From: a virus
Length of the DNA stretch: 64,000 nt
Direction: 5' to 3' (one strand)
Virus record (IMG/VR): IMGVR_UViG_3300031463_000001
Coordinates: 60,899-124,898 of that record
Part shown: positions 4,096 through 52,799 of the stretch, piece after piece
How positions within the stretch are numbered: position 1 is the stretch's first letter
How the letters are laid out: every line of letters begins with the position of its first letter
The notes under the pieces: model-generated
What the model was told of the DNA's origin: nothing
Seen by the model: the letters and a program-made list of their open reading frames with translations, nothing else
Databases searched by the model: none
Position numbers and translations under genes: made by a program

Positions 4096-4371
4096 TCATT
4101 CTTTTTTAGAATTCATATCACTCCAACATTTAGCACATAAATGCATATCATGATCTTTATCATAAAAATAAGTTTTTTTACCACAAAAAGTACAATAGGT
4201 TTCTTTATTTGTATCAATTAAAGTATCCACTTCAAATTTCTCAAAATTTTCATCATATGTAGTAACATCAATTTTTATACCTAAATAAGCTAGATCAATA
4301 TTATATTTTTCGGCAAACTTTTCAATAGTTTTCTCAAACTCTTTTTTAAGATTATTTAATTCATCATGCAT
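4096..4371 (-). CDS. Zinc-ribbon protein
   Basis: A 91-residue protein with a helical N-terminal half and a four-cysteine ribbon, 'YCTFCGKKTYF...LCAKCW', in the last third, likely binding one zinc ion. It overlaps the end of gat-queC by 8 bp and has an AAGGAGG site, so it is translationally linked to that gene. The partner or nucleic acid bound is unknown. Confidence 0.65.
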   Translation of the reverse strand: MHDELNNLKKEFEKTIEKFAEKYNIDLAYLGIKIDVTTYDENFEKFEVDTLIDTNKETYCTFCGKKTYFYDKDHDMHLCAKCWSDMNSKKE

Positions 4372-5791
4372 ATGGATACACCTCCTTATTTAAATCCAAA
4401 GTAACTTTGATAGGTTTATTTTTTATTTCTTTTTTTACTTTAAAAGTTCCTGGATCTTTTTCACCTAACATTTTAAAAGCAGCTAATCTAAATTGACAAC
4501 ATCCACATTCACCACAACTTATTATTTTGTTATTTTCAATTTTTGGATAATAGCATGAGGTAACATATTCATATGGTACACCTAGTTTTAATCCTAAACT
4601 TACTATTTCGTGTTTTATGAGATGAATAAGAGGAGCTTTAAATCTAACATTAGTATACCAATTTAAAGAATATTTCAAAGTTTTATCAAGTGAATCAATA
4701 AAAGTAATATTGTTATCTGGATATGCTATTCCATCCATTTGTTGAGCTCCCAATGCTACAGTATCAATTTTATTCATTTCAGCCAATGCAGCTGCAATAG
4801 AAGCAAAAATCATATTTCGGTTTGGAACATATGATAAAGTAGATTCAGCATCTTTTATTTTTAATTTAGGATTAGCTTTCTTTTGGCTTAATAAAAGTGA
4901 TGCATTTTTGAAAGGTTTAAATAAAGGTCGAGCATCATAAATCATTAAAGGAGCCTTTAAATGCTGAGCAATTTTTTTAACTGAAAATGTTTCTGCTTTT
5001 TCTGCTGCTTGTCCATAATTAAAATGCAAAAGATTCACTTGGTATCCTATATAATTATAGAGATAAGCAGTAGTAGTACTATCTATTCCTCCACTACAAA
5101 TTACTAAAACTTTTTTATTTGGTTCTCTTCTAAATAATGAGAAACTATCTATTTTTTCATTTTGATATCTAAATAAAGTGTATGGAGGTACTTCTTTTAT
5201 ATCGTTGTTATATTTTGAAAACATTTCTTTTAAAGAAGCTATAATTATTCCATTTCTAGAAGTAATTACATAATGGAGAGGCATAAAATTACTTCCCCAC
5301 CACAAACTTTTATCTTTTAAATTGTAAGCTATTATTGCATAACTTCCTTCAATTTCTTTTAATCCCTCAATTATTCCTTTAATAGAAAATAAAGAAGGTA
5401 AGATAGAGGAATCAACTTTAGATTCAGTTTTAATTTTATATTTTTTTCTTAATTCTAAATCATTACTAATTCCACCGTTATGAACTACTATCCACTCATC
5501 ATTTTGAAATGGTTGAAGATTAATAATGGAATCTCCTGCTCCTTGCATATATTCAATTTCAGGCATTGCTCTACTATTACCTAGAATGACTTTATTATGA
5601 AAAGATATTTCAGATAATCTTTCTTTTATAGGATTTATTTCTTTATCTTGAATTTTTGTGAAATAACTATTATCCAAAGACTTTATTAGAATACCAAATC
5701 CATCTCTTCCTCTTATCCTTAAATTATCTATCATTTGAATTATAGTTTCTTCTTTCTCGTCTACTCTATAAAATCCTACTATCCCACACAT
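4364..5791 (-). CDS. queC: Gat-QueC fusion: amidotransferase plus 7-cyano-7-deazaguanine synthase
   Basis: A 475-residue two-domain protein. Residues 1 to about 215 form a class II glutamine amidotransferase with the nucleophile Cys2 ('MCGIVGFYR'), 'NSRAMPE' and 'VVHNGGISND'. The rest is QueC, a PP-loop ATPase with 'ICSGGIDSTT' and a C-terminal zinc-binding cysteine cluster, 'SCYYP...SCGECGCC'. QueC turns 7-carboxy-7-deazaguanine into preQ0; Gat-QueC fusions in phages have been linked to 7-amido-7-deazaguanine in DNA. The other pathway genes lie more than 28 kb away on the opposite strand. RBS AAGGAG. Confidence 0.92.
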   Translation of the reverse strand: MCGIVGFYRVDEKEETIIQMIDNLRIRGRDGFGILIKSLDNSYFTKIQDKEINPIKERLSEISFHNKVILGNSRAMPEIEYMQGAGDSIINLQPFQNDEWIVVHNGGISNDLELRKKYKIKTESKVDSSILPSLFSIKGIIEGLKEIEGSYAIIAYNLKDKSLWWGSNFMPLHYVITSRNGIIIASLKEMFSKYNNDIKEVPPYTLFRYQNEKIDSFSLFRREPNKKVLVICSGGIDSTTTAYLYNYIGYQVNLLHFNYGQAAEKAETFSVKKIAQHLKAPLMIYDARPLFKPFKNASLLLSQKKANPKLKIKDAESTLSYVPNRNMIFASIAAALAEMNKIDTVALGAQQMDGIAYPDNNITFIDSLDKTLKYSLNWYTNVRFKAPLIHLIKHEIVSLGLKLGVPYEYVTSCYYPKIENNKIISCGECGCCQFRLAAFKMLGEKDPGTFKVKKEIKNKPIKVTLDLNKEVYPYA

Positions 5792-5848: not shown

Positions 5849-7021
5849 TTAAAACAATGACTCAGGTAAATCAATATCTGCTTCTTCAATTTCTCCAGAT
5901 TGAGGTTTTATTCTTTTTTCTTTTTTAGATTTTTCTGTTTCTTCTTCCATCATTAAATTTTCATATTGATTTATTGATTTTAGAAACTCTAAATATTCTT
6001 TCCAACTTTCAATATCTCCTTTTATATAAGGTTCCCAAGAACGTTTTCTATCTTTAAGAACATTTTTAATATATTGGACAGCCCAATAAGGATTTTTCTT
6101 TATAATGTCTTCTCCTTTAGGAAATGGTCCTTTTAATATTTCTGTTGCATATCTATAAGAAAGTTCAGGATTTTGAGCAATTATATCTTCTCCCTCAGGA
6201 AAAGGTTCTTTGAAAAGTTCTGCATATCTAAATGCATTCTCTGGAGTAGAAGTAAATATATGTTTATATTGAAAGGGAGCAAAAGTTATTTCTTCTATAT
6301 ACCTAAAAGCAAGTTCAATATCTTGGGCAATAATTATTTCACCTTCAGGAAATGGGCCCTTTAAAATATCTTTAGCATAATTAAAAACATTTATTGGTGA
6401 GGTTGAATAAGGAGCAAGTAAATTAGCTTTTTCTATATCTTTATTTTCTAGAGCTTCTTGAAATTCTTTTTCAAGTTGGGATGAATTTGTTAATAAAGTT
6501 TTTAATGTAGGATCATTTAATTCAGGATGATCTTTATAAAACTCATTAAGTTTTCCCATTTTTTTAAGATTTTCTATATAGTCATATAAAACTTCTTTAT
6601 TCTTAATAATAGCTTTTTCACCCTCTTTAAATCTAAACCAAAATATTGTCGCATAATAATATGAATAAACTCCGCTAGAAGCAATAGCTGGTTCGCCTGG
6701 AGGCCATTTACGGTGTATGACATCTTTAGCATAAAGATAGCTATATTTACTACTTTTCATTATTTCTTTTTCACCTAATGGAAATCTTTCTCTTAATACT
6801 TTACGTGCATATTCATAACTTGTATCTGGACGAGAGGCTACAATTAATTCCTTTTTATAAGGAAGAGATTTTTGATTTTTTATGGCATAATTTAAAAGAT
6901 TATAAGGATCTTTAGAATACATATAAAGTTTATCCATCATTAACTCATCATTAGTTTCTATAGTTTTTTTAAAAACGTCCTCTAATTTATTTGGATCTTT
7001 TAACAAATCTTCTATATTCAT
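5849..7021 (-). CDS. Double-length helical-repeat paralogue (two units fused)
   Basis: A 390-residue protein made of two family units joined head to tail. Unit 1 begins 'MNIEDLLKDPNKLEDVF', has repeats such as 'SYLYAKDVIHRKWPPGEPAI', and ends with the cap 'MGKLNEFYKDHPEL'. Unit 2 begins 'LKTLLTNSSQLEKEF', has repeats such as 'SYRYATEILKGPFPKGEDII', and ends with 'YLEFLKSINQYENL'. A charged tail follows, ending 'DIDLPESLF'. The start overlaps the stop of the upstream copy (ATGA). It is the last gene of the left array. Function unknown; helical hairpin repeats suggest protein binding. Confidence 0.8.
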   Translation of the reverse strand: MNIEDLLKDPNKLEDVFKKTIETNDELMMDKLYMYSKDPYNLLNYAIKNQKSLPYKKELIVASRPDTSYEYARKVLRERFPLGEKEIMKSSKYSYLYAKDVIHRKWPPGEPAIASSGVYSYYYATIFWFRFKEGEKAIIKNKEVLYDYIENLKKMGKLNEFYKDHPELNDPTLKTLLTNSSQLEKEFQEALENKDIEKANLLAPYSTSPINVFNYAKDILKGPFPEGEIIIAQDIELAFRYIEEITFAPFQYKHIFTSTPENAFRYAELFKEPFPEGEDIIAQNPELSYRYATEILKGPFPKGEDIIKKNPYWAVQYIKNVLKDRKRSWEPYIKGDIESWKEYLEFLKSINQYENLMMEEETEKSKKEKRIKPQSGEIEEADIDLPESLF

Positions 7022-7689
7022 ATTTTAACCTCTGGATGATCTTTTAAGAATTCATCTAATTTGTTTATGCTTTTAAGAAACTCAACATAAGGTTCTAACC
7101 AATCTGAATTTATTATAGCATCCTCTCCTTTAATAAATCTATCTTTTAACACATCTTTAGCATAAAGATAAGAAGATTCTGGATCTTTAGCAATAGCATC
7201 TTCTCCTTTTGGAAAAGGACCTTTTAACACATTTTTAGCATAAAGATAAGAAGTATAATAATATTGAGCAATAGCATCCTCTCCTTTTGGAAAGGGACCA
7301 TGTAAGACATTATAAGCATAAAGATAAGAAGCAGAATCACCTTGGGCAATAGCATCCTCACCTTTAGGCCACGGTTTATGTAAAACACTTCTAGCATACA
7401 TAGCTGCATGGTCAGGATTTTGAGAAATGACATCTTCTCCTTTAGGAAAAGGTTTATGCAAAATTTCCATAGCATAATAGATAGCACTTTGTGAATTTCT
7501 AGCAATTATATCTTCCCATTCATCTTTAATTTTTCCTTTAACTATTTCATGTGCATACCTATAAGTCAACCATGGATCTTTGACTATTGGAACTAACATT
7601 TCTGCTAATTTTTTATTTTTATCTTCAAGGGCATCTTCTAATAATTCTTTAACTTTATTAGGATCTTTTAATAAATCTGAAATGTTCAT
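7018..7689 (-). CDS. Helical-repeat paralogue, five repeats
   Basis: A 223-residue archetype of the family. N-module 'MNISDLLKDPNKVKELL' through 'KIKDEWEDIIARNSQ', then five ~26-residue repeats ('SYLYAKNVLKGPFPKGEDAI' type), then the cap 'FLKSINKLDEFLKDHPEV'. Consecutive repeats are nearly identical at DNA level, which points to recent expansion. An AAGGAAG site lies before ATG 7689, and a promoter-like motif at 7698-7719 suggests a transcript begins here. Its last codons give GAGGT as the Shine-Dalgarno site for the next gene. Confidence 0.85.
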   Translation of the reverse strand: MNISDLLKDPNKVKELLEDALEDKNKKLAEMLVPIVKDPWLTYRYAHEIVKGKIKDEWEDIIARNSQSAIYYAMEILHKPFPKGEDVISQNPDHAAMYARSVLHKPWPKGEDAIAQGDSASYLYAYNVLHGPFPKGEDAIAQYYYTSYLYAKNVLKGPFPKGEDAIAKDPESSYLYAKDVLKDRFIKGEDAIINSDWLEPYVEFLKSINKLDEFLKDHPEVKI

Positions 7690-7697
7690 TCTTCCTT

Positions 7698-7719
7698 TTT
7701 ATAAAATCAAAAACTACAT
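7698..7719 (-). promoter_or_regulatory. Candidate promoter motif inside the paralogue array
   Basis: The minus strand carries GTAGTTTTTGATTTTATAAAA directly upstream of the AAGGAAG site of the gene starting at 7689. It resembles the motifs at 494-517 and 26571-26592. It lies at one of the two gene junctions in the array that is not an overlap. Confidence 0.35.
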
Positions 7720-7742
7720 TTATGAATTATGTTTTTCTTTAA

Positions 7743-8186
7743 CTATACTTTATCTTTTACCTCTGGATGATCTTTTAAGAACTCATCTAGTTTACCTATC
7801 TCTTTTAAGAAATTAACATAATTATCTAACCAAATTGACTTTATTATTGTTTTTTCTCCTTTAATGAATCTATCTCTCAAAATATTCTCTGCATAATAAA
7901 ATCCCACTATAGCATCTTTGGACATAATATCCTCACCTTTAGGAAAGGGATCTCTTATAACATCTCTGACATACCAATAAGTCACATCTGCATCTTGGAT
8001 AATGATATCTTCCCACTCATCTTTAATTTTACTTTTAACTATATCTCTAGCATATTTATAAGTTAACCTTGGATCTTTAACTATAGGAATTAAAGTTTCT
8101 GCTACTTCTTTATTTTCCTTGTCAATAGCTTTTTCCAAAACTTTTATTACTTTATCTTTATTTTTTAACAGATCAGATATATTCAT
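7743..8186 (-). CDS. Helical-repeat paralogue, two repeats
   Basis: A 147-residue family member: N-module 'MNISDLLKNKDKVIKVL', two repeats ('TYWYVRDVIRDPFPKGEDIM', 'GFYYAENILRDRFIKGEKTI') and the cap 'FLKEIGKLDEFLKDHPEV' extended by KDKV. The start overlaps the stop of the upstream copy by ATGA. A 53-bp gap with a promoter-like motif separates it from the next copy downstream. Confidence 0.82.
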   Translation of the reverse strand: MNISDLLKNKDKVIKVLEKAIDKENKEVAETLIPIVKDPRLTYKYARDIVKSKIKDEWEDIIIQDADVTYWYVRDVIRDPFPKGEDIMSKDAIVGFYYAENILRDRFIKGEKTIIKSIWLDNYVNFLKEIGKLDEFLKDHPEVKDKV

Positions 8187-8774
8187 ATTTTAACCTTTGG
8201 ATAATCTTTATAGAACTCATTTAGTTTACCTCGTGATTTAAGAAAGCTGATATACTCTTTACGATAATTTCTAATAATAGCCCCTTCACCTTTAATGAAT
8301 CTATCTTTTAATACATTTGTAGCATAATAATAAGAATAATAAGCATTTAAAGCAATAGTATTTTCTCCTTTAATGAATCTATCTTTTAGCACATCTTGAG
8401 CATAATGATATGAACAAAAAACATCCCTAGCAATAGCATTCTCCCCTTTAGGGAATGGTTTCTGTAAAACCTTTTTTGCATATACATAAGAATATTCATA
8501 ATCTTGAGCAATAGCCTCCTCTCCTTTAAGGAATGGTCCATGTAAAACATAGTTAGCATAATAGTATGAATTTTGTGAATCCTGAGCAATAATATCTTCC
8601 CACTCATCTTTAATTTTACCTTTAACTATATCACTTAGCATATAAATAAGTTAACCTTGGATCTTTGGCTAGTGGAATTAAAGTTTCTGCTAATTCTTTA
8701 TTTTTCTTATCAATAGCCATTCTTAATACTTTATTAACTTTATCAGAATCTTTTAACAAATCCACTATATTCAT
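8183..8774 (-). pseudogene. Helical-repeat paralogue split by a +1 frameshift
   Basis: Starting at ATG 8774 the frame reads 'MNIVDLLKDSDKVNKVLRMA' to 'DPRLTYLYAK' and stops at TGA 8631. The remainder continues in the next frame from about 8641 ('DIVKGKIKDEWEDIIAQ') with four repeats and the cap 'LKSRGKLNEFYKDYPKV'. Intact paralogues have GCTAGAGATATA where this copy has GCTAAGTGATATA, one extra base. Sequencing error, decay or phase change cannot be told apart. The internal ATG at 8641 could still give a repeat-only protein. ATGA overlaps occur at both ends. Confidence 0.75.
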
Positions 8775-9289
8775 AATTTAACCTCTGGATGATCTTTTAA
8801 GAACTCATTTAATTTATTTATCTCTTTTAAGAAATTAACATAATCAGTCAAATAAAGAAGATCACTAATTATAATCTTCTCACCTTTAATGAATCTATCC
8901 TTTAAAATTTTTCTAGCATACAAATATGACTCAGTAGCAAAATGGGAGATAACCTCTTCCCCTTTAGGAAAGGGACCTTTTAAAATATTCTCAGCATAAT
9001 TAAGAGCATTTATATGATCGCTAGCAATAGCCTCTTCTCCTTTAGGCCACGGACCTTTTATAATTTTAGCAACATACATATGAGTGACATGAGTGTTTTG
9101 AATAATGATATCTTCCCACTCTTCCTTTACTCTACCTTTAACTATTCTTTCTGCATAACGTTCTACCAACCATGGATTTTTGACTATTGGGATTAAAGCT
9201 TCGGCTAATTCTTTATTTTTCTTATTAATAGCGTCTTCCAAAATTTCTCTTGTTTTATTTGGATCTTTTAACAAATCCACTATATTCAT
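8771..9289 (-). CDS. Helical-repeat paralogue, three repeats
   Basis: A 172-residue family member: N-module 'MNIVDLLKDPNKTREILEDA', three repeats ('HMYVAKIIKGPWPKGEEAI', 'ALNYAENILKGPFPKGEEVI', 'SYLYARKILKDRFIKGEKII') and the cap 'FLKEINKLNEFLKDHPEV'. Both ends overlap neighbours by ATGA. It shares an almost identical ~50-bp junction sequence with the copies on either side. Confidence 0.84.
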   Translation of the reverse strand: MNIVDLLKDPNKTREILEDAINKKNKELAEALIPIVKNPWLVERYAERIVKGRVKEEWEDIIIQNTHVTHMYVAKIIKGPWPKGEEAIASDHINALNYAENILKGPFPKGEEVISHFATESYLYARKILKDRFIKGEKIIISDLLYLTDYVNFLKEINKLNEFLKDHPEVKL

Positions 9290-9642
9290 AATTTAACCTC
9301 TGGATGATCTTTTAAGAACTCATCTAATTTATTTATTTCTTTAAGAAAATCCACATACTCATTTAACCACATTGACTTTATTATTACACCTTCTCCTTTA
9401 ATAAAAGGTTTATGTAAAATGTCTATAGCATAGGAACAAGAACTTTGCGGATCTTGAGCAATAATATTTTCCCACTCATCTTTAACTGGTTTTTTTATTA
9501 GGTAAGCATAACCATAAGTAAGCCAAGGATCTTTGGCCACTGGAACCAACAATTCGGCTAATTCTTTATTTTTATCTGCAAGGGCATCTTCTAATATTTC
9601 TCTAGCTTTATCAGAATCTTTTAACAAATCCTCTATATTCAT
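9286..9642 (-). CDS. Helical-repeat paralogue, single repeat (minimal unit)
   Basis: A 118-residue copy with the N-module 'MNIEDLLKDSDKAREILEDA', one repeat 'SCSYAIDILHKPFIKGEGVI' and the full cap 'FLKEINKLDEFLKDHPEV'. It also has a short deletion in the linker: 'YLIKKPVKDEWENII' replaces the usual IVKGKIKDEWEDII. This shows that one repeat is enough to keep an open frame. ATGA overlaps at both ends. Confidence 0.84.
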   Translation of the reverse strand: MNIEDLLKDSDKAREILEDALADKNKELAELLVPVAKDPWLTYGYAYLIKKPVKDEWENIIAQDPQSSCSYAIDILHKPFIKGEGVIIKSMWLNEYVDFLKEINKLDEFLKDHPEVKL

Positions 9643-10154
9643 AATTTAACCTCTGGATGATCTTTTAAGAACTTATTTAATTTATGTTTCCTTTTAAGAA
9701 ACCAAACATAATCATCCAACCAAATTGACTTTATTATTACATTTTCTCCTTTAACAAATCTACCCTTTGATACATCCTTAGCATAATAATAAGAATAATA
9801 AGGATCTCTAGCAATAACATCCTCTCCTCTAATAAAAGGTTTATGTAAAACGTCTTTTGCATATATATAAGAATATTCAGAATTTTGAGCAATAGCATCT
9901 TCTCCTTTAGGCCAAGGTCCATGTAAAATATCTCTAGCATAATAGCAAGAACTCCATGGGTCGTGAGCAATGATATCCTCCCATTCATTTTTGATTTTTC
10001 CTCCAACTATTTTTCTAGCATATAAATGAGTTAAATAAGAATCTTTGACGATTGGAATTAGAGCCTCAGCCAATTCTTTATTTTTATTTACTAATGCATA
10101 TTTCAAAACTTCTCTAGCTTTATTTGAATCTTTTAACAAATCCACTATATTCAT
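9639..10154 (-). CDS. Helical-repeat paralogue, three repeats
   Basis: A 171-residue copy: N-module 'MNIVDLLKDSNKAREVLKYA', three repeats ('SCYYARDILHGPWPKGEDAI', 'SYIYAKDVLHKPFIRGEDVI', 'SYYYAKDVSKGRFVKGENVI') and the cap 'FLKRKHKLNKFLKDHPEV'. Ser replaces the usual Leu in the third repeat. ATGA overlaps at both ends, with GAGGT in the upstream gene acting as the likely Shine-Dalgarno site. Confidence 0.83.
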   Translation of the reverse strand: MNIVDLLKDSNKAREVLKYALVNKNKELAEALIPIVKDSYLTHLYARKIVGGKIKNEWEDIIAHDPWSSCYYARDILHGPWPKGEDAIAQNSEYSYIYAKDVLHKPFIRGEDVIARDPYYSYYYAKDVSKGRFVKGENVIIKSIWLDDYVWFLKRKHKLNKFLKDHPEVKL

Positions 10155-10589
10155 AATTTAACCTCTGGATGATCTTTTAAGAACTCATCTAGTTTACCTA
10201 TTTCTTTAAGAAACTTAATATACACATTTAACCACCTTGACTTTATTATTACACTCTCTCCTTTAATGAATCTTCTTTTTAATATATCTATAGCATAATA
10301 ATAAGAATGCCATGGATCTCTAGCAATAACATCCTCTCCTTTAATAAAAGGTTTATGTAAAACAGTATAAGCATAAGCATATTGCGGAATCAATATCTTG
10401 GGCAATTATATCTTCCCACTCATCCTTAATTTTACCTTTAACTATTTCTCTAACATATAAATAAGTTAAATAAGGATGTTTGGCTATAGGAATTAACATT
10501 TCAGCTAATTCTTTATTTTTATTTTCAATAGCCATTTCTAATGCTTCCTCTAATTTATTTGGATCTTTTAATAAATCTACTATATTCAT
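10151..10589 (-). pseudogene. Helical-repeat paralogue with frameshift near 10,383
   Basis: The N-module 'MNIVDLLKDPNKLEEALEMA' to 'DEWEDIIAQDIDSA' leaves frame and ends at 10353. The repeats resume in another frame ('YAYAYTVLHKPFIKGEDVI', 'SYYYAIDILKRRFIKGESVI') and end with the cap 'FLKEIGKLDEFLKDHPEV'. The break lies at GCAATATGCTTATGCTTAT, a short repeated stretch that could slip. The 3' part could start at a TTG near 10405 but has no convincing ribosome site. Decay, slippage or an assembly error are all possible. Confidence 0.75.
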
Positions 10590-11023
10590 ATAGCCTCTGG
10601 ATGATCTTTTAAGAACTCTTCTAATTTATTTATTTTACTAAGAAACGTCTTATATTTATTCAACCAAAACTCCTTACTTACGATAACCTCTTCTCCCTCA
10701 ATGAATCTACCTTTTAGAATTTCTTTAGCATAACTATATGAGTATCCATCATTTTTAGCAAAAATCTTTTCACCTTTAGGGAATGGTCCTTTTAAAACAT
10801 TATACGCATAGGCATAGGACATATATATGCTTTGAATAAGTATATCTTCCCACTCATCTTTGATTTTTCCTTTAACTATATTACCTGCATAATAATAAGT
10901 TAACCAAGGATCTTTAACTATAGGAATCAATATCTCGGCTAATTTTTTGTTTTTATCATCAATGATTTTTTCTAATACTTTTTTGACTTTATTCGAATCT
11001 TTTAATAAATCTTCTATGTTCAT
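10586..11023 (-). CDS. Helical-repeat paralogue, two repeats; first gene of the left array
   Basis: A 145-residue copy: N-module 'MNIEDLLKDSNKVKKVLEKI', repeats 'SYAYAYNVLKGPFPKGEKIF' and 'SYSYAKEILKGRFIEGEEVI', cap 'FLSKINKLEEFLKDHPEA'. It lacks a Shine-Dalgarno site at its own start (AT-rich leader) but, by its downstream ATGA overlap, leads the chain of coupled paralogues. Its promoter should lie in the long non-coding block upstream, 11024-11786. Confidence 0.82.
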   Translation of the reverse strand: MNIEDLLKDSNKVKKVLEKIIDDKNKKLAEILIPIVKDPWLTYYYAGNIVKGKIKDEWEDILIQSIYMSYAYAYNVLKGPFPKGEKIFAKNDGYSYSYAKEILKGRFIEGEEVIVSKEFWLNKYKTFLSKINKLEEFLKDHPEAI

Positions 11024-16429: not shown

Positions 16430-17737
16430 TCACTTCTCATCGAAGACTATCACTCGATGGTCACTCCTTTTCATTCCTTCTAATACCTTTTTCTCCTCCT
16501 CATTTTCGCACAGCCATACAATTTTGGGTTTGGGCCATTTTGTAACTCTCTGACTCCAATATCCATCTGTGACTCCAATTATGAGGTCAATCTCTTTTTC
16601 ATTCTCTTTCAACCAAGTAATGGCTGGCACAATATCAGTTCCACCTCCTCCAGCAAGTTCGACTTTATGTTTGACCTCCCAATCTTTGATCACCCTGAAG
16701 TTAACGTCAAACTCTATGAAGTATTTAACTTCTATTAATTCTTGAGAGATCATCTCTTTAATCCCTCTGATGACTCTCCCATAGAATTTATCACTCTCGA
16801 ATAGAGAGCCAGAAGTATCAAACAAGATCGCAACCCCTATCTTGCTCTCTTTCTTTTTCTTTCCTGGAATGACGATCTCATCATCATCATTCCTTCTATT
16901 AACTCTTGCGTAGCTGTTATCTGCGGTAGAAGGAAGAGTCCCAATTACATTCTTTAACACTTCCTTCCATTTCGCAGGTAACTTTTCTAGGAGGTCAAGA
17001 ATCCTAGATAACTCTCCAGGAAGTTTCCCAGCCAACTTATTCATCTCACTCTTGATTCCCTTCTTTACGTCTTCCTTTATTCTTTCTTTTTCTAAGGGAC
17101 TGTTTTTAAATTCGTCCCTCAGTTTCTCGTGATCGTCAACCGTTTGACGATCTCCTTTTTCTTCGCCCTCACCTCCTTCACCTCCTTCACCTTCTTCACC
17201 TCCTTCACTTCCTTCCTTCCCTTTACCTGCTCCGCTATTTTTCCCATTACATTTACCTCCCTGTGAAGGACAATCTTCATTAATTTTTATATTTTTCTGA
17301 AGTTTCATGAATATCTCTTCTGCGGAATCTTCCTCTTGGACTTCCTTATTGAATTGCCTCAGCCAATCGTGAGTCACAAAAGGCTTTCTACATAATAAGG
17401 GAAGATTCTGATTTATCGTAGCATCCTCAGCCCAGTTGGCCATCATATTCGAAGGTAATCTTTCAAAGTGTCCCATTGCCACATGGAGACACTCGTGCAT
17501 TACAATCTGGGCCAATAATTCTTCTCCATTAACATTTAGTTTGTGGGCCAATTCCTTCAATTTCTTTACATTGACCCACATTTTTTCTTTCCCAACACCC
17601 GCTGGGAAAGGGAGAGTGTCATCTCTAACAATCTCCCTCTTGGTCAGCACATAAACCAACGTGCGACCGTAGGTGGACCTAATTACTACGTTAGTAATTA
17701 GGTCCCTCAACTCTGAGTCTCGAATTTCCAGATTCAT
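16430..17737 (-). CDS. VWA-domain protein with HEXXH metallopeptidase-like N-terminus
   Basis: A 435-residue protein of the DUF2201/VWA-like group. 'IVMHECLHVAMGH' is an HEXXH zinc-metallopeptidase motif near residue 90, followed by 'WAEDATINQ'. A Gly/Glu/Lys-rich linker occupies about residues 170-200. The C-terminal VWA domain has the metal-site motif 'FDTSGSLFES', 'GGGGTDI' and 'GVTDGYW'. Such proteins work with MoxR AAA+ ATPases, and the partner gene lies directly upstream with an ATGA overlap. Target unknown. The pair is clearly richer in GC than its surroundings, suggesting later acquisition. Confidence 0.85.
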   Translation of the reverse strand: MNLEIRDSELRDLITNVVIRSTYGRTLVYVLTKREIVRDDTLPFPAGVGKEKMWVNVKKLKELAHKLNVNGEELLAQIVMHECLHVAMGHFERLPSNMMANWAEDATINQNLPLLCRKPFVTHDWLRQFNKEVQEEDSAEEIFMKLQKNIKINEDCPSQGGKCNGKNSGAGKGKEGSEGGEEGEGGEGGEGEEKGDRQTVDDHEKLRDEFKNSPLEKERIKEDVKKGIKSEMNKLAGKLPGELSRILDLLEKLPAKWKEVLKNVIGTLPSTADNSYARVNRRNDDDEIVIPGKKKKESKIGVAILFDTSGSLFESDKFYGRVIRGIKEMISQELIEVKYFIEFDVNFRVIKDWEVKHKVELAGGGGTDIVPAITWLKENEKEIDLIIGVTDGYWSQRVTKWPKPKIVWLCENEEEKKVLEGMKRSDHRVIVFDEK

Positions 17738-18819
17738 TTGTCCTCCATTTTATCAAGTATTTCTTTAAGTTTAGGAATATCTTTTTCGTCTATTCCTAAA
17801 CGTGCTGCAACCCACGTATCAAACTCTTTATCACTGACTTTCCATTTTGGAGCCTCTCGCCATATAGACGAAAGCCAAGCAAGTATCAATTCTCTGTCTT
17901 TGTCTTTCAAGTAGTTAAACACTTTGAGGAAGTCTTCCTTCTTTACTCCCACATTCTTCTTGATGCCTGACTCTAATAAGGTAATCCTATCCCCTTTGTC
18001 TATCTGGTCTAGTAACTCTGGATTTTTGATTACCTCTTCATAGGAAGGCAATTTAGGTTTAAAGTTTACCAACGCCAAAGCAGCTGTCCTTCCTATAAGA
18101 CCTATCAACATTGGAAGACTTATTCCATTTCTTTCTTGCTCGGCTATCAAAGCTCTCTCCCAAGTCCTTGGACAAGCAAAGCCCTGATAGACATCTTCGT
18201 CGAACTCTTCATTAGGAGCAATCAATTTTTCATTTTCGGCGAAGAATCTCTTTAAGAAAGAGCTCATTAAGCCTCTCTTTTCCATGTAGCTTATCCAGCC
18301 TGACTTGTCTCCCTTGACGACGTAGTAACACACTCTGGCTTTCCAAGCCACGTCGTCTTCCCTTACATTGTACTCGCCTGATGGATTGATCGCCCCAAGA
18401 ATTCTCACACTTGAGGGATCAAACTTTAACTCCTTGACCTTCCATTCGGCTAACAATTGAAAGACAGAGTGAGCCAAAGCAGGTTTCGCTCTATTATATT
18501 CGTCTAGGAATATTACGCTTTTCTCTCCCCTGCTCTGTCTCTCAAGTATTTCTCGCCACATAGGCAGAGCTCTCCATTCTACCTCATCTTTCACTTTAAT
18601 AGCAAAGCCAAGGACGTCTCCTACATCCTCAGCCTGGGCTAAGTGAATCACAAATGCTTTCGCACCTGTTGATTCACACGCTTGTAACACTCTGGCTGTT
18701 TTCCCTAAGCCAGTGTTACCCACTAATACCAGTGGCAACATATCTTTCGCCCTTATATGTGCCACTAACTCACTGTCGAGATTTCTCTCGACTATCTTTA
18801 TCTCTTCTCTCTCTTTCAT
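17734..18819 (-). CDS. MoxR-type AAA+ ATPase
   Basis: A 361-residue AAA+ ATPase. Walker A 'VGNTGLGKTARVLQ', Walker B 'VIFLDEYNRA', sensor 1 'RILGAINPSGEY'. MoxR ATPases act as chaperone-like remodellers paired with VWA proteins; here the VWA gene follows with an ATGA overlap. AGGAGG site upstream, behind a 10-bp inverted repeat in the leader (18837-18870). Alternative: a more general phage AAA+ (e.g. CbbQ/NirQ-like). Substrate unknown. Confidence 0.88.
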   Translation of the reverse strand: MKEREEIKIVERNLDSELVAHIRAKDMLPLVLVGNTGLGKTARVLQACESTGAKAFVIHLAQAEDVGDVLGFAIKVKDEVEWRALPMWREILERQSRGEKSVIFLDEYNRAKPALAHSVFQLLAEWKVKELKFDPSSVRILGAINPSGEYNVREDDVAWKARVCYYVVKGDKSGWISYMEKRGLMSSFLKRFFAENEKLIAPNEEFDEDVYQGFACPRTWERALIAEQERNGISLPMLIGLIGRTAALALVNFKPKLPSYEEVIKNPELLDQIDKGDRITLLESGIKKNVGVKKEDFLKVFNYLKDKDRELILAWLSSIWREAPKWKVSDKEFDTWVAARLGIDEKDIPKLKEILDKMEDK

Positions 18820-23204: not shown

Positions 23205-23813
23205 ATGAAAAAAGAAAGTAAAATAAATATTGTTGATTTATTAAAAGATCCAAATAAAGCTAAAGAAGTATTAACAATGGCTATAGATAATGGAAATAAA
23301 GAATTAGCCGAATTGTTAATTCCTATAGCCAAAGATCCCTATTTAACGTATAGTTATGCCTACTTAATAAATAAACCAGTTAAAGATGAGTTTGAAGATA
23401 TTATTGCTAAAAATTCTTTTTATTCTTATCAATATGCATTAGATATTTTACAGGGACCTTTCCTAAAAGGAGAAGATGCTATCTCTAAAAGTTCAGAATA
23501 TTCTTATAGATATGCCTTAAATATTTTACATAAACCATTTCCTAAGGGTGAGGATGCCATTACTAAAAATTCTTTTTATTCTTATCATTATGCTGCAGAT
23601 GTTTTACATAAACCATTTCCTAAAGGAGAAAATACTATTGCTGGAGATTCTTTTTATTCTTATAATTATGCTAAAGATATATTAAAAGATAGATTTATTA
23701 AAGGAGAAAAAACAATAATAAATTCAGAATGGTTAAATGATTATATTAGGTTTCTTAAAGAGATAAATAAACTAGATGAATTCTTAAATGATCATCCAGA
23801 GGTTAAATTATGA
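23205..23813 (+). CDS. Helical-repeat paralogue, four repeats
   Basis: About 202 residues from ATG 23205. N-module 'INIVDLLKDPNKAKEVLTMA', four repeats such as 'SYQYALDILQGPFLKGEDAI' and 'SYHYAADVLHKPFPKGENTI', cap 'FLKEINKLDEFLNDHPEV'. The start has no obvious Shine-Dalgarno site; a longer in-frame start at 23160 seems unlikely. Its end overlaps the next copy by ATGA with GAGGT upstream. It is close to the copies of the left array but on the opposite strand. Confidence 0.82.
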   Translation: MKKESKINIVDLLKDPNKAKEVLTMAIDNGNKELAELLIPIAKDPYLTYSYAYLINKPVKDEFEDIIAKNSFYSYQYALDILQGPFLKGEDAISKSSEYSYRYALNILHKPFPKGEDAITKNSFYSYHYAADVLHKPFPKGENTIAGDSFYSYNYAKDILKDRFIKGEKTIINSEWLNDYIRFLKEINKLDEFLNDHPEVKL

Positions 23814-24166
23814 ATATATCAAAGTTGTTAAAAGATCCAAAAAAATTTGATGATTTTTTGTATCATGAAATTCAACATAACGATTTTTCAACATCTAGAA
23901 TACTTATTCCTTATACAAAAAATCCAGCAATTATTCACGCTTTTCTAAAAAAATTTAAAGTTAAAATTCCTTCATTAGAAAATTTAATTACTCAAAATCC
24001 ACATTTGGCATTAAGTTATATTGATAATGTTATTAAAGATCGCTGGCTTCCTGGAGAAGAAGCCATTCTTAAAAATGAAGAAGATTTGGAATATTATAAA
24101 GACTTCCTTAAATCTATTGGTAAACTAGACGAATTCTTAAAAGATCATCCAGAGGTTAAGAATTGA
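23810..24166 (+). CDS. Helical-repeat paralogue, single repeat
   Basis: A 118-residue protein: 'MNISKLLKDPKKFDDFLYHE', 'ILIPYTKNPAIIHAFLKKF', one repeat 'ALSYIDNVIKDRWLPGEEAI' and the cap 'FLKSIGKLDEFLKDHPEV'. The N-module is diverged but the cap is typical. Coupled to the upstream copy by ATGA. Confidence 0.8.
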   Translation: MNISKLLKDPKKFDDFLYHEIQHNDFSTSRILIPYTKNPAIIHAFLKKFKVKIPSLENLITQNPHLALSYIDNVIKDRWLPGEEAILKNEEDLEYYKDFLKSIGKLDEFLKDHPEVKN

Positions 24167-29447: not shown

Positions 29448-29476
29448 GTTTGTCGAGATTGATTTCTTTAAAGAAG

Positions 29477-30119
29477 ATGAATATAGCTGATTTATTAAAA
29501 AATCCAGAAAAACTAAATGATGTTTTTAGAGATGTATTAGATAAGGGAGATAAAGAATCAGCTAGGATATTACTTCCATATGTAAGTCCTTTTTTTTTAT
29601 TATAAGTATTTAGAACAGCTTGGAGAAAGGGTTCCCCTTGAATTCGAATCTAAATTATTTGGTTTGTCAGATTTTTCAAAAGGAGGATATGAGTATGTAA
29701 ATGTTATTTCAGGGAAGGATTTATATGATTCTTTTCTTAAAGATTGGGGAGATAAATATGCAAATAAAATAGTTAATGCATTAGCTAATTCTTATGATTA
29801 TGGGCCTCTAATAGAGGGTGCAGTTAAAACAACTAAAGAATATTCAGATCGAGTTTTTTTACCTCTTTTGAATTATGATTTTGATAGGACTAGTGATTCT
29901 TGGGGAACATTATTAACAATTCTTTTAACTAATTATAATTACAGATTACCTCCGGAGATATTATCTAAATTGGGTAAAGATGATTTAAAAGCATTAAAGA
30001 AATATTTAGGAGTTTATGAGAAATTAGTAGAGGAAAGAGAGGGGGATAGATATGCGGAAGATTCATATGACTTAATTAATGAATCTTATAAGTATTTGAA
30101 AAATAATTTAAGAAAGTAA
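29477..30119 (+). pseudogene. Paralogue-like gene interrupted at a nine-T run
   Basis: ATG 29477 gives 'MNIADLLKNPEKLNDVFRDV' and 'SARILLPYVSP', the family N-module, but the frame ends at TAA 29603-29605 just after a T9 run (29590-29598). Shifting by one base at the run continues as 'YYKYLEQLGERVPLEFES' into the open frame that ends at 30119. The C-terminal part does not show the usual repeats but has 'YRLPPEILSKLGKDDLKALK'. Run-length error, slippage-based switching or real decay are possible. Confidence 0.65.
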
Positions 30120-30123
30120 AAGA

Positions 30124-30171
30124 GTGAACATAGGTGAATTCTTAAAAGATCATTCAGAGGTAGAATTATGA
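30124..30171 (+). pseudogene. 15-codon remnant: paralogue N-terminus joined to its cap
   Basis: GTG 30124 to TGA 30171 encodes VNIGEFLKDHSEVEL: the first residues of the family (MNIGDLL) joined to the last (EFLKDHPEVKL), with everything between missing. The stop overlaps the next start by ATGA and the remnant still supplies the Shine-Dalgarno site (AGAGGT). It looks like the scar of an internal deletion between N-terminal and cap sequences. Confidence 0.65.
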
Positions 30172-30728
30172 ACATAGAAGATTTATTAAAACATCCAGAA
30201 AAAGCAAGAACGTTTTTGGACAAGGCTATTTTTGGTGGAAACAAAAAATTAGCTGAAATTTTAATTCCAATAGTTAAACATCCTTATTCAACTTATTTAT
30301 ATGCAAAAGAAATAGTTAAGGGAAAAATAAAAGATGAATGGGAATATATTATTGCTCAAGATCCTTATGCTTCTCTTGATTATGCCTTTAACATTCTAAA
30401 AGGTCCATTTCCAAAAGGAGAAGATGCAATTGCTAGAGATTCATATACTTCTTATAATTATGCTGTTATTTTAGAAAGACCGTGGCCAAAGGGAGAGGAT
30501 GTTATTGCTAGAGATCCAAGATTTGCTTATTATTATGCTAGATATGTGTTGAAGGATAGATTTCCAAAAGGAGAAAAAGAAATTATTAGTAGTGAGATTA
30601 CTGATCCGGGTAATGATTTTGGTGAAAATGGTGAATCAGGTTTTTCTTCTTATGTTAAGTTTTTGAAATCAATAAATAAATTAGACGAATTCTTAAAAGA
30701 TCATCCGGAGGTAAAAGATAGAGTATGA
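30168..30728 (+). CDS. Helical-repeat paralogue, three repeats
   Basis: A 186-residue copy: N-module 'MNIEDLLKHPEKARTFLDKA', repeats 'SLDYAFNILKGPFPKGEDAI', 'SYNYAVILERPWPKGEDVI' and 'AYYYARYVLKDRFPKGEKEI', an inserted Gly/Asn/Glu-rich loop (DPGNDFGENGESG), and the cap 'FLKSINKLDEFLKDHPEV'. ATGA overlaps on both sides. First intact copy of the right array. Confidence 0.84.
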   Translation: MNIEDLLKHPEKARTFLDKAIFGGNKKLAEILIPIVKHPYSTYLYAKEIVKGKIKDEWEYIIAQDPYASLDYAFNILKGPFPKGEDAIARDSYTSYNYAVILERPWPKGEDVIARDPRFAYYYARYVLKDRFPKGEKEIISSEITDPGNDFGENGESGFSSYVKFLKSINKLDEFLKDHPEVKDRV

Positions 30729-31189
30729 ATATAGAAGATTTATTAAAACATCCAGAAAAAGCACAAATGGCTTTGCGAGAAGCTATTTGGAATAATGATG
30801 CAAAATTAGCAGAAGCTTTAATACCAATAGCAAGAGATCCACATTTAACTCTTAATTATGCTCAAAATATAGTTAAGGGAAAAGTTAAAATTGAGTTTGA
30901 AGATATTATAGCCCGAGATGGAGAAGCTTCTTTTTATTATGCTTATGAAGTCTTAAATGGTCCCTTTCCTAGAGGAGAATATGCAATTGCTGAAAATGAA
31001 GATCTTTCATTAGATTATGCGATTAAAGTATTAAAGGATAGATTTCCAAAAGGAGAAGAAGCAATTATATATGTAGCTTTAAAGCATGATGATGATGTAT
31101 ATTTATGGAGATATACGGATTTTCTTAAAGAGATTGGTAAACTAGACGAATTCTTAAAAGATCATCCTGAGGTAAAAGATATAGAATGA
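30725..31189 (+). CDS. Helical-repeat paralogue, two repeats
   Basis: A 154-residue copy: 'MNIEDLLKHPEKAQMALREA', repeats 'SFYYAYEVLNGPFPRGEYAI' and 'SLDYAIKVLKDRFPKGEEAI', cap 'FLKEIGKLDEFLKDHPEV'. The first 13 residues match the upstream copy exactly, a sign of recent duplication or gene conversion. ATGA overlaps. Confidence 0.84.
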   Translation: MNIEDLLKHPEKAQMALREAIWNNDAKLAEALIPIARDPHLTLNYAQNIVKGKVKIEFEDIIARDGEASFYYAYEVLNGPFPRGEYAIAENEDLSLDYAIKVLKDRFPKGEEAIIYVALKHDDDVYLWRYTDFLKEIGKLDEFLKDHPEVKDIE

Positions 31190-31710
31190 ACATAGGTGAT
31201 TTACTAAAAGAAGGAGCGGATAGTGTTTTCGATAAAGCAATAAAAGAAAAAAATAAAGAGTTAGCAGATTTTCTAATTAAGTTTATAAAAGATCCTTTTC
31301 TTCTTTTCGATTATGCAGCTAAATTTAATGAAAAATTAAAACCTGAATTTGAAGATATTATTGCTAAAAATTGGGATACATCCTTTTATTATGCACTTCA
31401 TTTTAAAAATCCTTTTCCTAAAGGTGAAGATATAATGGCAAAAGATTTGTATACTGCCTATCATTATGCAGCTGATGTTTTACAAGGACCATTTCCAAAA
31501 GGTGAACCTATAATTTCTCAATTTCCATATTCATCATATTATTATGCTAAAAGGATATTGCATGATAGATTTCCAAAAGGAGAAAAAGCAATTATTGATA
31601 GCAAAGATCAAGAAAATGATGAAGATTATTTTAGACTCTATATTAAATTTTTAAAATCCATTAATAAACTAGATGAATTCTTAAAAGATCATCCAGAAGT
31701 TAAATTATGA
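31186..31710 (+). CDS. Helical-repeat paralogue, three repeats
   Basis: A 174-residue copy: 'MNIGDLLKEGADSVFDKAIK', 'FLIKFIKDPFLLFDYAAKF', repeats 'SFYYALHFKNPFPKGEDIM', 'AYHYAADVLQGPFPKGEPII' and 'SYYYAKRILHDRFPKGEKAI', cap 'FLKSINKLDEFLKDHPEV'. The N-module is shorter than usual. ATGA overlaps. Confidence 0.84.
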   Translation: MNIGDLLKEGADSVFDKAIKEKNKELADFLIKFIKDPFLLFDYAAKFNEKLKPEFEDIIAKNWDTSFYYALHFKNPFPKGEDIMAKDLYTAYHYAADVLQGPFPKGEPIISQFPYSSYYYAKRILHDRFPKGEKAIIDSKDQENDEDYFRLYIKFLKSINKLDEFLKDHPEVKL

Positions 31711-32897
31711 ATATAGAAGATTTGTTAAGGGATCCAAATAGGGTTAAAGAATTATTAGATGAAGTTATTAATAATGGAAACAAAAAATTAGCTAAAGTTT
31801 TACTTCCATTAGTTGAAAAAGAGTCAACTAGATATGGTTACATAGAGTCATTATTGAAGGGTAGAGAAATTGTAGCTGATTTCGAATCACGATTACCTGT
31901 TTTGATTAAACAGTATAAGGCTCACAATCCAGAATTATCTGAAAGTGAAGCCGAAGCTAAGATTCGTGAATTGAATCAATATGATCCAACGGGTTTAAAA
32001 GCTACATATACACCCTGGATTGTAAAACAGTATTTGGAAGATTCATCATTCGATTTGGATTTAGCTAAACAAGTTTTGAAGGATCTTGAAAAGGTTGTTT
32101 TACATAAGAAACTACCTGCAGGATTCGATATTGGAAAGTTTAACTTAAATGAATTGAAATCGAAACTTCAACCAATACTTGAGCCAATTGAAGAGTCGGA
32201 AAAGGAGAAGGAAGAGATTAAAAAAGAAGGTCCAATAGGTCAATCATTAATCTCTGAAGAGGGTTATGAAATTATTGAAGTTACTGATCCAAAAGATAGT
32301 GTAAGATTCTGTAAAAAATATCATATTAGGTCTTGGTGTGTAAAGGATTTGGAGTATGCAGAGTTTTACGTTCCTCTCTACTTCGTTTTAAAGAATGGTT
32401 CGCCAAAAGGTGCATGGTCAGAATATGATAAAAAGCTCAGTAATCGACAAGATTTAGATGAGTGGGATCTTGATGAAAGAGATTTTATAGCAAAACTATT
32501 AAGAAAAGTTAGACCTAATTTAACAATAAAGACAAAAGAAGAAATGAAAAGGGAAGCTTTGAATTCTCCGGAGAAAGCTTATAATTATGCATTTAAGGTT
32601 AAAGGAAGATTTCCAGAAGGAGAACCTATAATAGCAAAAAGTCCTAAATATGCTTATTATTATGCAAGAGATGTTATTAAAGAAAGATTTCCTAAAGGGG
32701 AGCCTGCTATAGCAAAAGATTTTTATTTTGCGTGTCTGTATGCAAAATTTGTTATTAAAGGAAGATTTTTAGAAGGAGAAGCTGTAATAATAAATTCAAA
32801 TTATTTTGATGATTATGTTGAGTTTCTTAAAGAAATAAATAAACTAGATGAGTTCCTAAAAGATCACCCAGAAGTTAAAAATTACAAGTCTTTTTAA
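31707..32897 (+). CDS. Helical-repeat paralogue with a ~230-residue inserted domain
   Basis: A 396-residue protein. The N-module ('MNIEDLLRDPNRVKELLDEV', 'LAKVLLPLVEK') is followed by an insert, about residues 50-285, then three repeats ('AYYYARDVIKERFPKGEPAI' type) and the cap 'FLKEINKLDEFLKDHPEV'. The insert has 'YTPWIVKQYLEDSS', 'VRFCKKYHIRSWCVKD' and 'YVPLYFVLKNGSPKGAW'. The order 'PWIVKQ...WC...PLYFVL' resembles a domain I recall from many uncharacterised phage proteins (usually YGxGTxWCTS). Last gene of the right array. Function unknown. Confidence 0.78.
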   Translation: MNIEDLLRDPNRVKELLDEVINNGNKKLAKVLLPLVEKESTRYGYIESLLKGREIVADFESRLPVLIKQYKAHNPELSESEAEAKIRELNQYDPTGLKATYTPWIVKQYLEDSSFDLDLAKQVLKDLEKVVLHKKLPAGFDIGKFNLNELKSKLQPILEPIEESEKEKEEIKKEGPIGQSLISEEGYEIIEVTDPKDSVRFCKKYHIRSWCVKDLEYAEFYVPLYFVLKNGSPKGAWSEYDKKLSNRQDLDEWDLDERDFIAKLLRKVRPNLTIKTKEEMKREALNSPEKAYNYAFKVKGRFPEGEPIIAKSPKYAYYYARDVIKERFPKGEPAIAKDFYFACLYAKFVIKGRFLEGEAVIINSNYFDDYVEFLKEINKLDEFLKDHPEVKNYKSF

Positions 32898-34333: not shown

Positions 34334-34494
34334 TGATTTTGATATTGAGTATACTAATAGGAATCTTGATAGGATCATTATGTTATAGAAAAGGTTTTAA
34401 AGATGGAGGACATAAAGCAATAGAAATTTATAAACAGGAAATTTTTAAGGATGATGATGAGATAATCATTATGCATAAAGGAGGGTTTAAATGA
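34327..34494 (+). CDS. Small single-pass membrane protein, 55 aa
   Basis: ATG 34327 to TGA 34494. A hydrophobic N-terminal segment 'MVMILILSILIGILIGSLCY' is followed by a charged tail 'RKGFKDGGHKAIEIYKQEIF'. It overlaps the helicase stop by 7 bp, and its GGAGGG codons provide the Shine-Dalgarno site for queE. Function unknown. Confidence 0.6.
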   Translation: MVMILILSILIGILIGSLCYRKGFKDGGHKAIEIYKQEIFKDDDEIIIMHKGGFK

Positions 34495-35180
34495 TGCAAA
34501 AATATAATGTAGTAGAAATATTTGGTCCTACTATTCAAGGAGAAGGTTGTTTAATAGGAAAGAAGGTAAGTTTTATAAGATTTTGGGGATGCGATTATAG
34601 ATGTGCTTTTTGTGATACTAAGTATGCTTATGAAGAAAAAAATTATATGAAAATGACTGTTTCATCTATAATTAAGAAACTTGAAAAAAATTATACTTCT
34701 ACAGTAGTAATTACAGGAGGAAATCCTTGCATATATGATTTAACTGAATTAATAAAAGAATTAAAAGAAAGAGGATTTTTTGTTTGTGTAGAAACTCAAG
34801 GAAGTCTTTTTCCTGATTGGTTAAGTTTAGTTGATTTAGTAGTAATTTCACCTAAACCTCCTTCAGCAAAAACAAAAAATTTTGATATTAAAAATTTTGG
34901 AATAAGTTCGAGATATTTACTTAATTACATAATTAAACCTGTAGTAGATATAAATAATAAAGAGGATATGAAATGGTTGGATAAATTATATGAAGAATTA
35001 GGAGAAAGTACTCTTTTTTATATTCAATTATGCACCTATAAAAAAGATAATCAAATTTCATTATTAAAAAGGTATAGAAAACTTGTTGAATATGTTATGA
35101 AAAAGAAAGATTGGAAGGAGGTATTTGTTTTACCACAACTTCATTCTTTAACGTGGGGAATAAAAAGTAGAGGAGTTTAG
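34491..35180 (+). CDS. queE: 7-carboxy-7-deazaguanine synthase QueE
   Basis: A 229-residue radical SAM enzyme. 'VVEIFGPTIQGEGCLIGKK' is the QueE N-terminal signature; the cluster motif is C-x3-C-x2-C in 'WGCDYRCAFCDTKYAYE'; 'VVITGGNP' binds SAM. QueE converts 6-carboxy-tetrahydropterin to 7-carboxy-7-deazaguanine, the substrate of the Gat-QueC protein. ATG 34491 or 34494 both possible after AAAGGAGGGTTTAA. Confidence 0.93.
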   Translation: MMQKYNVVEIFGPTIQGEGCLIGKKVSFIRFWGCDYRCAFCDTKYAYEEKNYMKMTVSSIIKKLEKNYTSTVVITGGNPCIYDLTELIKELKERGFFVCVETQGSLFPDWLSLVDLVVISPKPPSAKTKNFDIKNFGISSRYLLNYIIKPVVDINNKEDMKWLDKLYEELGESTLFYIQLCTYKKDNQISLLKRYRKLVEYVMKKKDWKEVFVLPQLHSLTWGIKSRGV

Positions 35181-51275: not shown

Positions 51276-51870
51276 ACGTCAAATATCTATGCAAACTTTA
51301 GCTAAGTTTGATGTTTTTGAAATTGAAAAAGGGAAATGTAATTATTTTGGCGATTCTATAAAAGTTGATGATATTAGGGAAGGAGTTTATTTTCCTCTTT
51401 ATTATTTTAATAAAAAATTGTTGGGGTATGCATTAAGAAAATTACATGATTCAAATGAAAAGTGGGTTTATTCAAAATCGTTTAAAAGAAATCATTTTTT
51501 ATATGGGTTTGTTGAAAATTTTAAAGCTATTAAAGAAAAAAAAGAAGTTATTTTGGTGGAAGGATTATTTGATTGTTTAAAATTGGTAGATGAAGGTTTT
51601 ACTAATACTGTAAGTAGTTTTGGAACTTTATTTACTTTTTATCATTTTGTATTATTATATCCATTAGTTAATAAAATAATTTTGATACCTGATTCGGATG
51701 AAGGTGGAAATAAAATGATAGAAAAAGTTAAGGAAATAATAAATAATAAATTAGAATTAGATATAATAAAATTACCTAAAAATTATGATCCAGATGATTT
51801 TTTAATTAAATATGGGAAAAAAGCTTTTTCAAATTTGATTTTAAAAAAAGGAGGAGAGTATGCTAAGTGA
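51259..51870 (+). CDS. TOPRIM-domain primase catalytic protein
   Basis: About 203 residues (ATG 51259; ATG 51289 is an alternative, no good ribosome site for either; coupled to queD by overlap). 'VILVEGLFDCLKLVDEGF' and 'NKIILIPDSDEGGNKMIEK' give the E...DxD TOPRIM core, and 'LPKNYDPDDFLIKYG' is the DPDD motif of DnaG/T7-type primases. It lacks a zinc finger, which lies in the gene at 35192. Confidence 0.83.
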   Translation: MQLLSKRQISMQTLAKFDVFEIEKGKCNYFGDSIKVDDIREGVYFPLYYFNKKLLGYALRKLHDSNEKWVYSKSFKRNHFLYGFVENFKAIKEKKEVILVEGLFDCLKLVDEGFTNTVSSFGTLFTFYHFVLLYPLVNKIILIPDSDEGGNKMIEKVKEIINNKLELDIIKLPKNYDPDDFLIKYGKKAFSNLILKKGGEYAK

Positions 51871-52162
51871 TGAAGATAAGATGGATAATACGCAGGAATT
51901 TAATTATTTTGAGAAATTGTCTAATTTTTCTGCAGAAAATATGAAAATGAATTCTGTTGATTTACCTAAGATTAAAATTAAACTTAGAGGTAAAGAATAT
52001 GAAATATTTGCTACTGATCCTTTAGGGGCAATATTTTGTTCTTTGATTGAATTAAATAATAAAAAAGTAGATCAAATTTTAAATAGTTTTAAAATAACAT
52101 TAAAAGATGTGAAGGGTAATATTATATTTCCTGTAAAGGAGAATAAAAATGGAAGAAAATAA
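51860..52162 (+). CDS. Hypothetical protein
   Basis: A 100-residue protein with 'LPKIKIKLRGKEYEIFATDP'. Good GGAGGAG site; overlaps both neighbours. Located between the TOPRIM and NusG-like genes. No family recognised. Confidence 0.6.
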   Translation: MLSDEDKMDNTQEFNYFEKLSNFSAENMKMNSVDLPKIKIKLRGKEYEIFATDPLGAIFCSLIELNNKKVDQILNSFKITLKDVKGNIIFPVKENKNGRK

Positions 52163-52799
52163 ACCCTCTCGTATAGAAAAAGTTTTTTTGGATACTTTAA
52201 ATGTTTCATGGGGAAATACTGAAGTATTAAATTCTTCGGGTTGGTATTTTTTATATTATGGGAATTTGAATTGTTTAAGAAACTTTTTAACTTTTTTACC
52301 TTCTAAATTGGATGCTTACAAATTATGGCAACCTTCTTATAAAGTAAAAAAAGAAAAAAATAGATCAGTAATAGAAACTAAACGATTACTTTTTCCAGGT
52401 TATGCTTTTTTTAAGACTTTAGATATAATGAACGTGGATTGTTTTATAAAGGATTATTTTAAAGATTTTTATTTTTATTTTTTAAAGAAAGGAAGAGAAT
52501 TTGCAACGTTAACTGCTGAGGAAGAAGAATGGATTTTAAAATTAGAAGAAATTTGGACTAAAATAGTAGAAGAACATTGTAAATTTAAAAAAGGAGATGT
52601 TGTAAGGTTAAAAAATGCTTATTGGGGAAATTTAGTAGGTAAAGTAGTAGATATAGATGAACCTAAACAAATTGCAACGGTAGAGTTTGTATTTTTTCAA
52701 ACTCGTACTATATTGTTTAAAGTAGATTTGAATACTTTGGAAAATTTAACTCCACCTGAGGAATTTTTAGGAATTCTTTTGGATGAAAAAGATTATTAA
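52149..52799 (+). CDS. NusG-like transcription factor (NGN plus KOW)
   Basis: A 216-residue protein. The N-terminal NGN-like part has 'GWYFLYYGNLNCLRNFL' and 'LLFPGYAFFKTL'; the C-terminal KOW-like domain has 'FKKGDVVRLKNAYWGNLVGK' then 'ATVEFVFFQTRTILFKVD'. NusG/RfaH bind the RNA polymerase clamp and act as antiterminators or coupling factors. A phage copy next to a sigma4-like gene suggests redirected elongation of host polymerase. AAAGGAG site. Confidence 0.8.
   Translation: MEENKPSRIEKVFLDTLNVSWGNTEVLNSSGWYFLYYGNLNCLRNFLTFLPSKLDAYKLWQPSYKVKKEKNRSVIETKRLLFPGYAFFKTLDIMNVDCFIKDYFKDFYFYFLKKGREFATLTAEEEEWILKLEEIWTKIVEEHCKFKKGDVVRLKNAYWGNLVGKVVDIDEPKQIATVEFVFFQTRTILFKVDLNTLENLTPPEEFLGILLDEKDY

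Follow-up and report, generated by a model that had tools for sequence, protein, structure and literature searches.

The array of related genes at positions 5849-11023 raises the question of whether the last codons of a phage gene, which encode a conserved protein cap, also serve as the ribosome site of the next copy, and whether these codons are selected for such a dual role. The window analysed here, i.e., a stretch of 64,000 nucleotides (positions 60,899 to 124,898 of IMGVR_UViG_3300031463_000001), belongs to a virus record of 124,898 bases with 28% G+C. The record probably represents a tailed phage, whole or in part, since it carries genes for a polA-type polymerase, a UvsX-like recombinase, a DnaB helicase, a ribonucleotide reductase and QueC/QueE; no tRNA genes were found in the window. 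At window positions 4364-5791 and 34491-35180, genes for QueC (with a glutamine amidotransferase domain) and for a QueE-like radical SAM protein suggest 7-deazaguanine DNA modification. At 16430-18819, a DUF2201 metallopeptidase/VWA-like protein adjoins an ATPase of PHROG 1297.

The genes in question belong to a large family of predicted solenoid proteins. In the whole record, 36 ORFs or fragments match this family and cover, measured stop to stop, 19.5 kb (about 16% of the record). They form five arrays (record 23.7-26.0, 44.6-48.2, 66.7-71.9, 84.1-85.1 and 91.1-93.8 kb; the third is the array at window 5849-11023), in all of which the paralogues stand head-to-tail, while divergent members are scattered beyond them.

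All members of the array at window 5849-11023 are on the minus strand. The first (10586..11023, 145 aa) has the cap DHPEAI and overlaps the next gene within GAGGCTATATGA. The second (10151..10589) is split by a frameshift into ORFs 10353-10589 and 10151-10405; its cap GAGGTTAAATTATGA is shared by the third (9639..10154, 171 aa), fourth (9286..9642, 118 aa) and fifth member (8771..9289, 172 aa), i.e., this exact string is found at four boundaries, with the respective ATGs at 10154, 9642, 9289 and 8774. The sixth (8183..8774) is again frameshift-split (8631-8774 and 8183-8641) with cap YPKVKI and AAAGGTTAAAATATGA, and the seventh (7743..8186, 147 aa) ends with DHPEVKDKV and TATAG without overlapping its successor. 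A 53-nt gap leads from 7743 to the eighth member (7018..7689, 223 aa), which has its own Shine-Dalgarno site AAAAAGGAAGAATG and the cap GAGGTTAAAATATGA. The last gene (5849..7021, 390 aa) is divergent and has no DHPEV cap. Variants of the common boundary are GAGGTTAAAATATGA (7021), GAGGCTATATGA (10589, cap PEAI) and CCAAAGGTTAAAATATGA (8186, cap YPKV). That is, 7/8 boundaries are ATGA overlaps on the same strand, and 6/7 of these overlaps show GAGG(T) 4-6 nt upstream of the next ATG, where the spacing from the end of GAGGT to the ATG is 6 nt. This confirms the observation of an earlier note on this DNA that the cap codons contain GAGGT shortly before the next ATG and that stop and start overlap as ATGA. 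Predicted promoters and terminators in the array did not exceed those in shuffled sequences.

Two further arrays, both on the plus strand, are found in the window: one with two members (23205..24166; GAGGTTAAATTATGA junction at 23810) and one with four (30168..32897; ATGA junctions at 30725, 31186 and 31707, the last with GAA and without GAGG). In total, three family members are frameshift-split (8183-8774, 10151-10589 and 29450-30119 of the window). These may be assembly errors, which are indistinguishable from decay in the present sequence. Over the whole record, GAGG is located 3-15 nt upstream in 12/16 family-to-family ATGA junctions compared to 8% of all ATGA tetramers, which is above chance. 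Four boundaries leading to a paralogue (record 24273, 25541, 47612 and 92605; three ATGA overlaps and one 3-nt gap) use GAA and therefore do not show GAGG, and one junction uses AAG (AAAGGT). Elsewhere in the record, a second class of caps (KDKV/KDKL/KDRV/KDIE) places GAGGT 12 nt from the ATG, a spacing beyond the optimal one.

Given that PEV yields GAGGT whenever its Glu is encoded by GAG, the motif before the ATG could be a mere coincidence of the HPEV peptide. Against this, the cap Glu is GAG in 16/21 cases (76%), while GAG makes up only 20% of Glu codons genome-wide (p=6e-8), and the spacing to the ATG suits initiation. We consider chance a highly improbable explanation.

The earlier note went further and took the PEV codons to be selected for their dual role, such that the array would tolerate changes in copy number and act as a self-coupling expansion device. 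We ran the codon comparison it had proposed. The PEV codons do depart from the genome bias, but caps without a following paralogue behave alike within the small numbers available: GAG is used in 14/18 caps with a paralogue next and in 4/6 caps without (Fisher p=0.62; p=0.37 if a related contig, L013, is added). Counting an inserted unrelated gene (see below) as coupled gives 15/19 vs. 3/5 (p=0.57), and adding L013 gives 17/22 vs. 3/6 (p=0.31). Due to these small numbers, the comparison neither refutes nor supports selection. Furthermore, codons of the same cap that have no role in the ribosome site depart even more strongly from the genome bias than GAG (Phe TTC 18/21, p=6e-17; Leu CTA 12/21, p=2e-10; Leu CTT 15/21, p=8e-9). 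Common ancestry alone thus yields such a bias, and the codon test cannot part selection from shared descent. Specific selection on the dual role is therefore not borne out by codon choice.

Some smaller observations are more favourable to selection. Among ten conserved Glu columns, the one in the cap is the richest in GAG (76%, next 53%), and CCG, a rare Pro codon by which the site grows to GGAGGT, is used more often than expected (4/21 vs. 2%). In L013, one cap (DHLEV) reads TTGGAGGTG, i.e., the usual proline is given up for a better site, and another (DHLGV) keeps GGAG (GGAGTA). In both caps, the protein is altered and a site retained. In addition, a collapsed cassette of 15 codons is found on the plus strand at window 30123..30171 (GTG AAC ATA GGT GAA TTC ... 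DHSEVEL TGA), in which the N-terminal cap is joined straight to the C-terminal cap (30123-30170; (V)NIGEFLKDHSEVEL) and which is syntenic to an intact 188-codon gene (L013:7268-7834). The start signals of the cassette itself are degraded (GGAGGT to GAAAGT, ATG to GTG), while GAGGT and ATGA into the next gene (30168) are kept. This single case fits a ribosome-site role that outlasts the protein. Together with the location of the cap codons, which is that expected of a ribosome site for the next gene, it makes such a role of the cap likely, in line with that part of the earlier note.

Such a role is not tied to paralogues. A 4-nt Shine-Dalgarno core upstream of ATGA was found in the whole record for 14/17 family upstream genes (13 of them GAGG) and for 10/14 non-family genes, compared to a background of 19%. 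The last codons of non-family genes show a similar picture, where Glu is encoded by GAG in 13/24 cases if an ATG overlaps and in 22/57 elsewhere (genome 20%). Moreover, an unrelated gene (record 46130-46648) is inserted in array B, bordered by ATGA overlaps at either end, and the cap GGAGGTTAAACTATGAG provides its ribosome site. Since both the non-family overlaps and this cap carry such sites, an overlap with an internal site is the usual gene packing of this phage, and the link to paralogues drawn by the earlier note is not supported. The inserted gene (L010:6131-6649, minus strand) encodes 172 aa, its end KIKL*ATGA resembles the cap tails, and no match was found in Pfam or PHROG. While gene overlap itself is ordinary phage practice, a family that fills about 1/6 of the sequenced genome is not.

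Next, we considered how the junctions were copied. On a tree, members cluster by array (0/200 shuffles as low), a pattern that local duplication with a degree of exchange would produce. Pairwise dN/dS of the 15 least diverged pairs is about 0.3-0.57, and the copies are thus under constraint. At the syntenic locus flanked by the helicase and DnaB genes, L013, a single and fairly distant relative, carries 7 members compared to 4 plus remnants here; order differs as well as copy number, and clear orthologues exist only for some members (e.g., 31186 and L013:7825, 74% identity). Junctions in L013 include other overlaps of 10 and 13 nt. At the junctions of the record, DNA identity is 0.9-0.98 over about 75 bp and 0.5-0.6 in both flanks, which need not mean recombination because this long conserved stretch also encodes the conserved protein caps.

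Outside its own record, the junction DNA pattern was not found in viral contigs. A search of bacterial and archaeal genomes gave no match, nor did tblastn against named phages and plasmids, where the low-complexity filter may hide repeats. Other viral contigs encode the same 26-residue repeat with a different N-terminal cap (MNLYKYH..P). Where it occurs in tandem genes, as is sometimes the case, these show gaps of 2 or 0 or an ATGA overlap, and no Shine-Dalgarno site was found in their caps; the solenoid genes of L026 and L035, e.g., are closely packed without it. Tight packing rather than the cap site is therefore the common feature, which also speaks against an expansion device based on the site.

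Synonymous diversity provides a further view. That of the cap is not below that of the gene body, which again disfavours selection on the cap codons, with the exception of the array at window 5849-11023. There, it is 0.08 in the last 13 codons vs. 0.32 in the body, including sites without ribosome role, which suggests a recent homogenisation of this array alone. Cap DNA might hence be kept mainly by gene conversion or recent duplication, with GAGGT as a passenger and coupling provided by the overlap alone. The persistence of GAA junctions and the site-free packing in L026 and L035 agree with this alternative. On the other hand, synonymous diversity of the caps in arrays A and B equals or exceeds that of the body, and GAG nonetheless prevails overall, and the collapsed cassette kept its site while its own start signals decayed. 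We thus regard homogenisation as the main cause as doubtful, if worth some weight, and selection for a self-coupling device as unlikely.

The encoded proteins have conserved caps at the N- and C-terminus, with a variable number of two-helix repeats of 26 residues between them. For the 223-residue member (7018-7689), the structure model is a helical solenoid with high confidence (pLDDT 96.8). The variable repeat positions (13, 17, 20 and 21) are located in the second helix, which would be compatible with a variable face for binding. The leading, though tentative, assignment for these proteins is that of soluble scaffolds which bind by diversified surfaces. No homologue was found in the PDB, neither by sequence (best E 0.028, alanyl-tRNA synthetase) nor by fold (nothing at E<=0.001); BFVD gave only weak matches to uncharacterised phage proteins and a defence library none. 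We rejected the Pfam match to HTH_35 (Ner-like DNA-binding), as it covers 17 of 75 residues with a score summed over repeats, and the model is a continuous solenoid rather than a full winged helix-turn-helix. For 7018-7689 and its homologues, HTH_35 passes the cut-off only by these summed 17-residue matches, so an automatic labelling as DNA-binding protein would be misleading. Matches to PHROG 769 and SfsB were likewise rejected, as they are short and summed over repeats.

The 26-residue repeat region of several array proteins is matched by PHROG 28193, a group of phage proteins of unknown function, with E down to 6.6e-08. In contrast to the array proteins, which start with the repeat caps, this PHROG has a length of 681 and carries a GTxWC-type region at its N-terminus; no ORF with this motif was found in the record. 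In the viral contigs L022, L025, L026 and L027, the repeat is fused to or located near a GTxWC-type protein (PHROG 28193/17056). A second set of paralogues in the record (51539-52117, 52117-52689 and 54278-54844) has the leader M(N/K/D)ISDLLKYP in common with the solenoids, nearly base-for-base identical, with a differing body, and this leader might act as a separate signal.

Overall, the locus is probably best explained by coupled translation of the ordinary kind, which tandem duplication has copied within a multigene family of probable binding scaffolds. The array would be a polycistronic unit of tandemly duplicated phage genes, each encoding a helical solenoid of variable length. Based on established knowledge, translation would pass down the array by termination-reinitiation, aided by the intragenic Shine-Dalgarno site as at the phage's other overlaps. 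Recombination between copies could then add, remove or swap whole genes without harm to translation, because start, stop and ribosome site share one conserved junction stretch of about 75 bp. GAGGT would be kept by shared descent and ordinary, leaky selection for a ribosome site, i.e., by nothing specific to paralogues.

A bolder and rather improbable extension takes the junction as a compact cassette border that combines stop, start, ribosome site and recombination homology. Solenoid or foreign genes, as the one at record 46130-46648, could be inserted, lost and shuffled while being translated, such that the phage could keep up with changing host factors by rapidly evolving its set of binding proteins. 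If true, this would explain how the family grew to about 1/6 of the sequenced length without having to build further promoters or ribosome sites, and the junctions would serve as a natural test case for the shares of overlap and Shine-Dalgarno strength in coupling. In any case, the phage invests a sizeable part of its sequence in a so far unexplained solenoid family that lacks a solved structure and a known function.

The mechanism as such is already known; family size and cassette-like junctions are the more interesting part. Termination-reinitiation with the help of an intragenic Shine-Dalgarno site has been described for overlapping gene pairs, where removal of the site lowered downstream translation to an extent that varies by gene pair (PMC6728339), and spacers and overlaps are adapted to such sites (PMC2784483). 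The phage junctions resemble the pairs of PMC6728339 in their ATGA overlap and in a GAGG-type site that precedes the start by a few bases, still within the upstream gene. The site of those pairs is helpful but not always needed, as the GAA junctions of the phage would require. In contrast to those pairs, the phage junction, for which coupling is predicted from sequence, recurs between paralogues and has its site within a conserved protein cap. Gene accordions, i.e., tandem paralogue arrays with copy-number change such as the S. aureus csa1 cluster (PMC7360770), provide the second comparison. Copy number may likewise differ among relatives of the phage, as it does at one syntenic locus of the one, fairly distant relative compared, with no variation seen within a population. 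While the phage genes differ from csa1-type accordions in their 4-nt overlaps, they share the head-to-tail order of paralogues.
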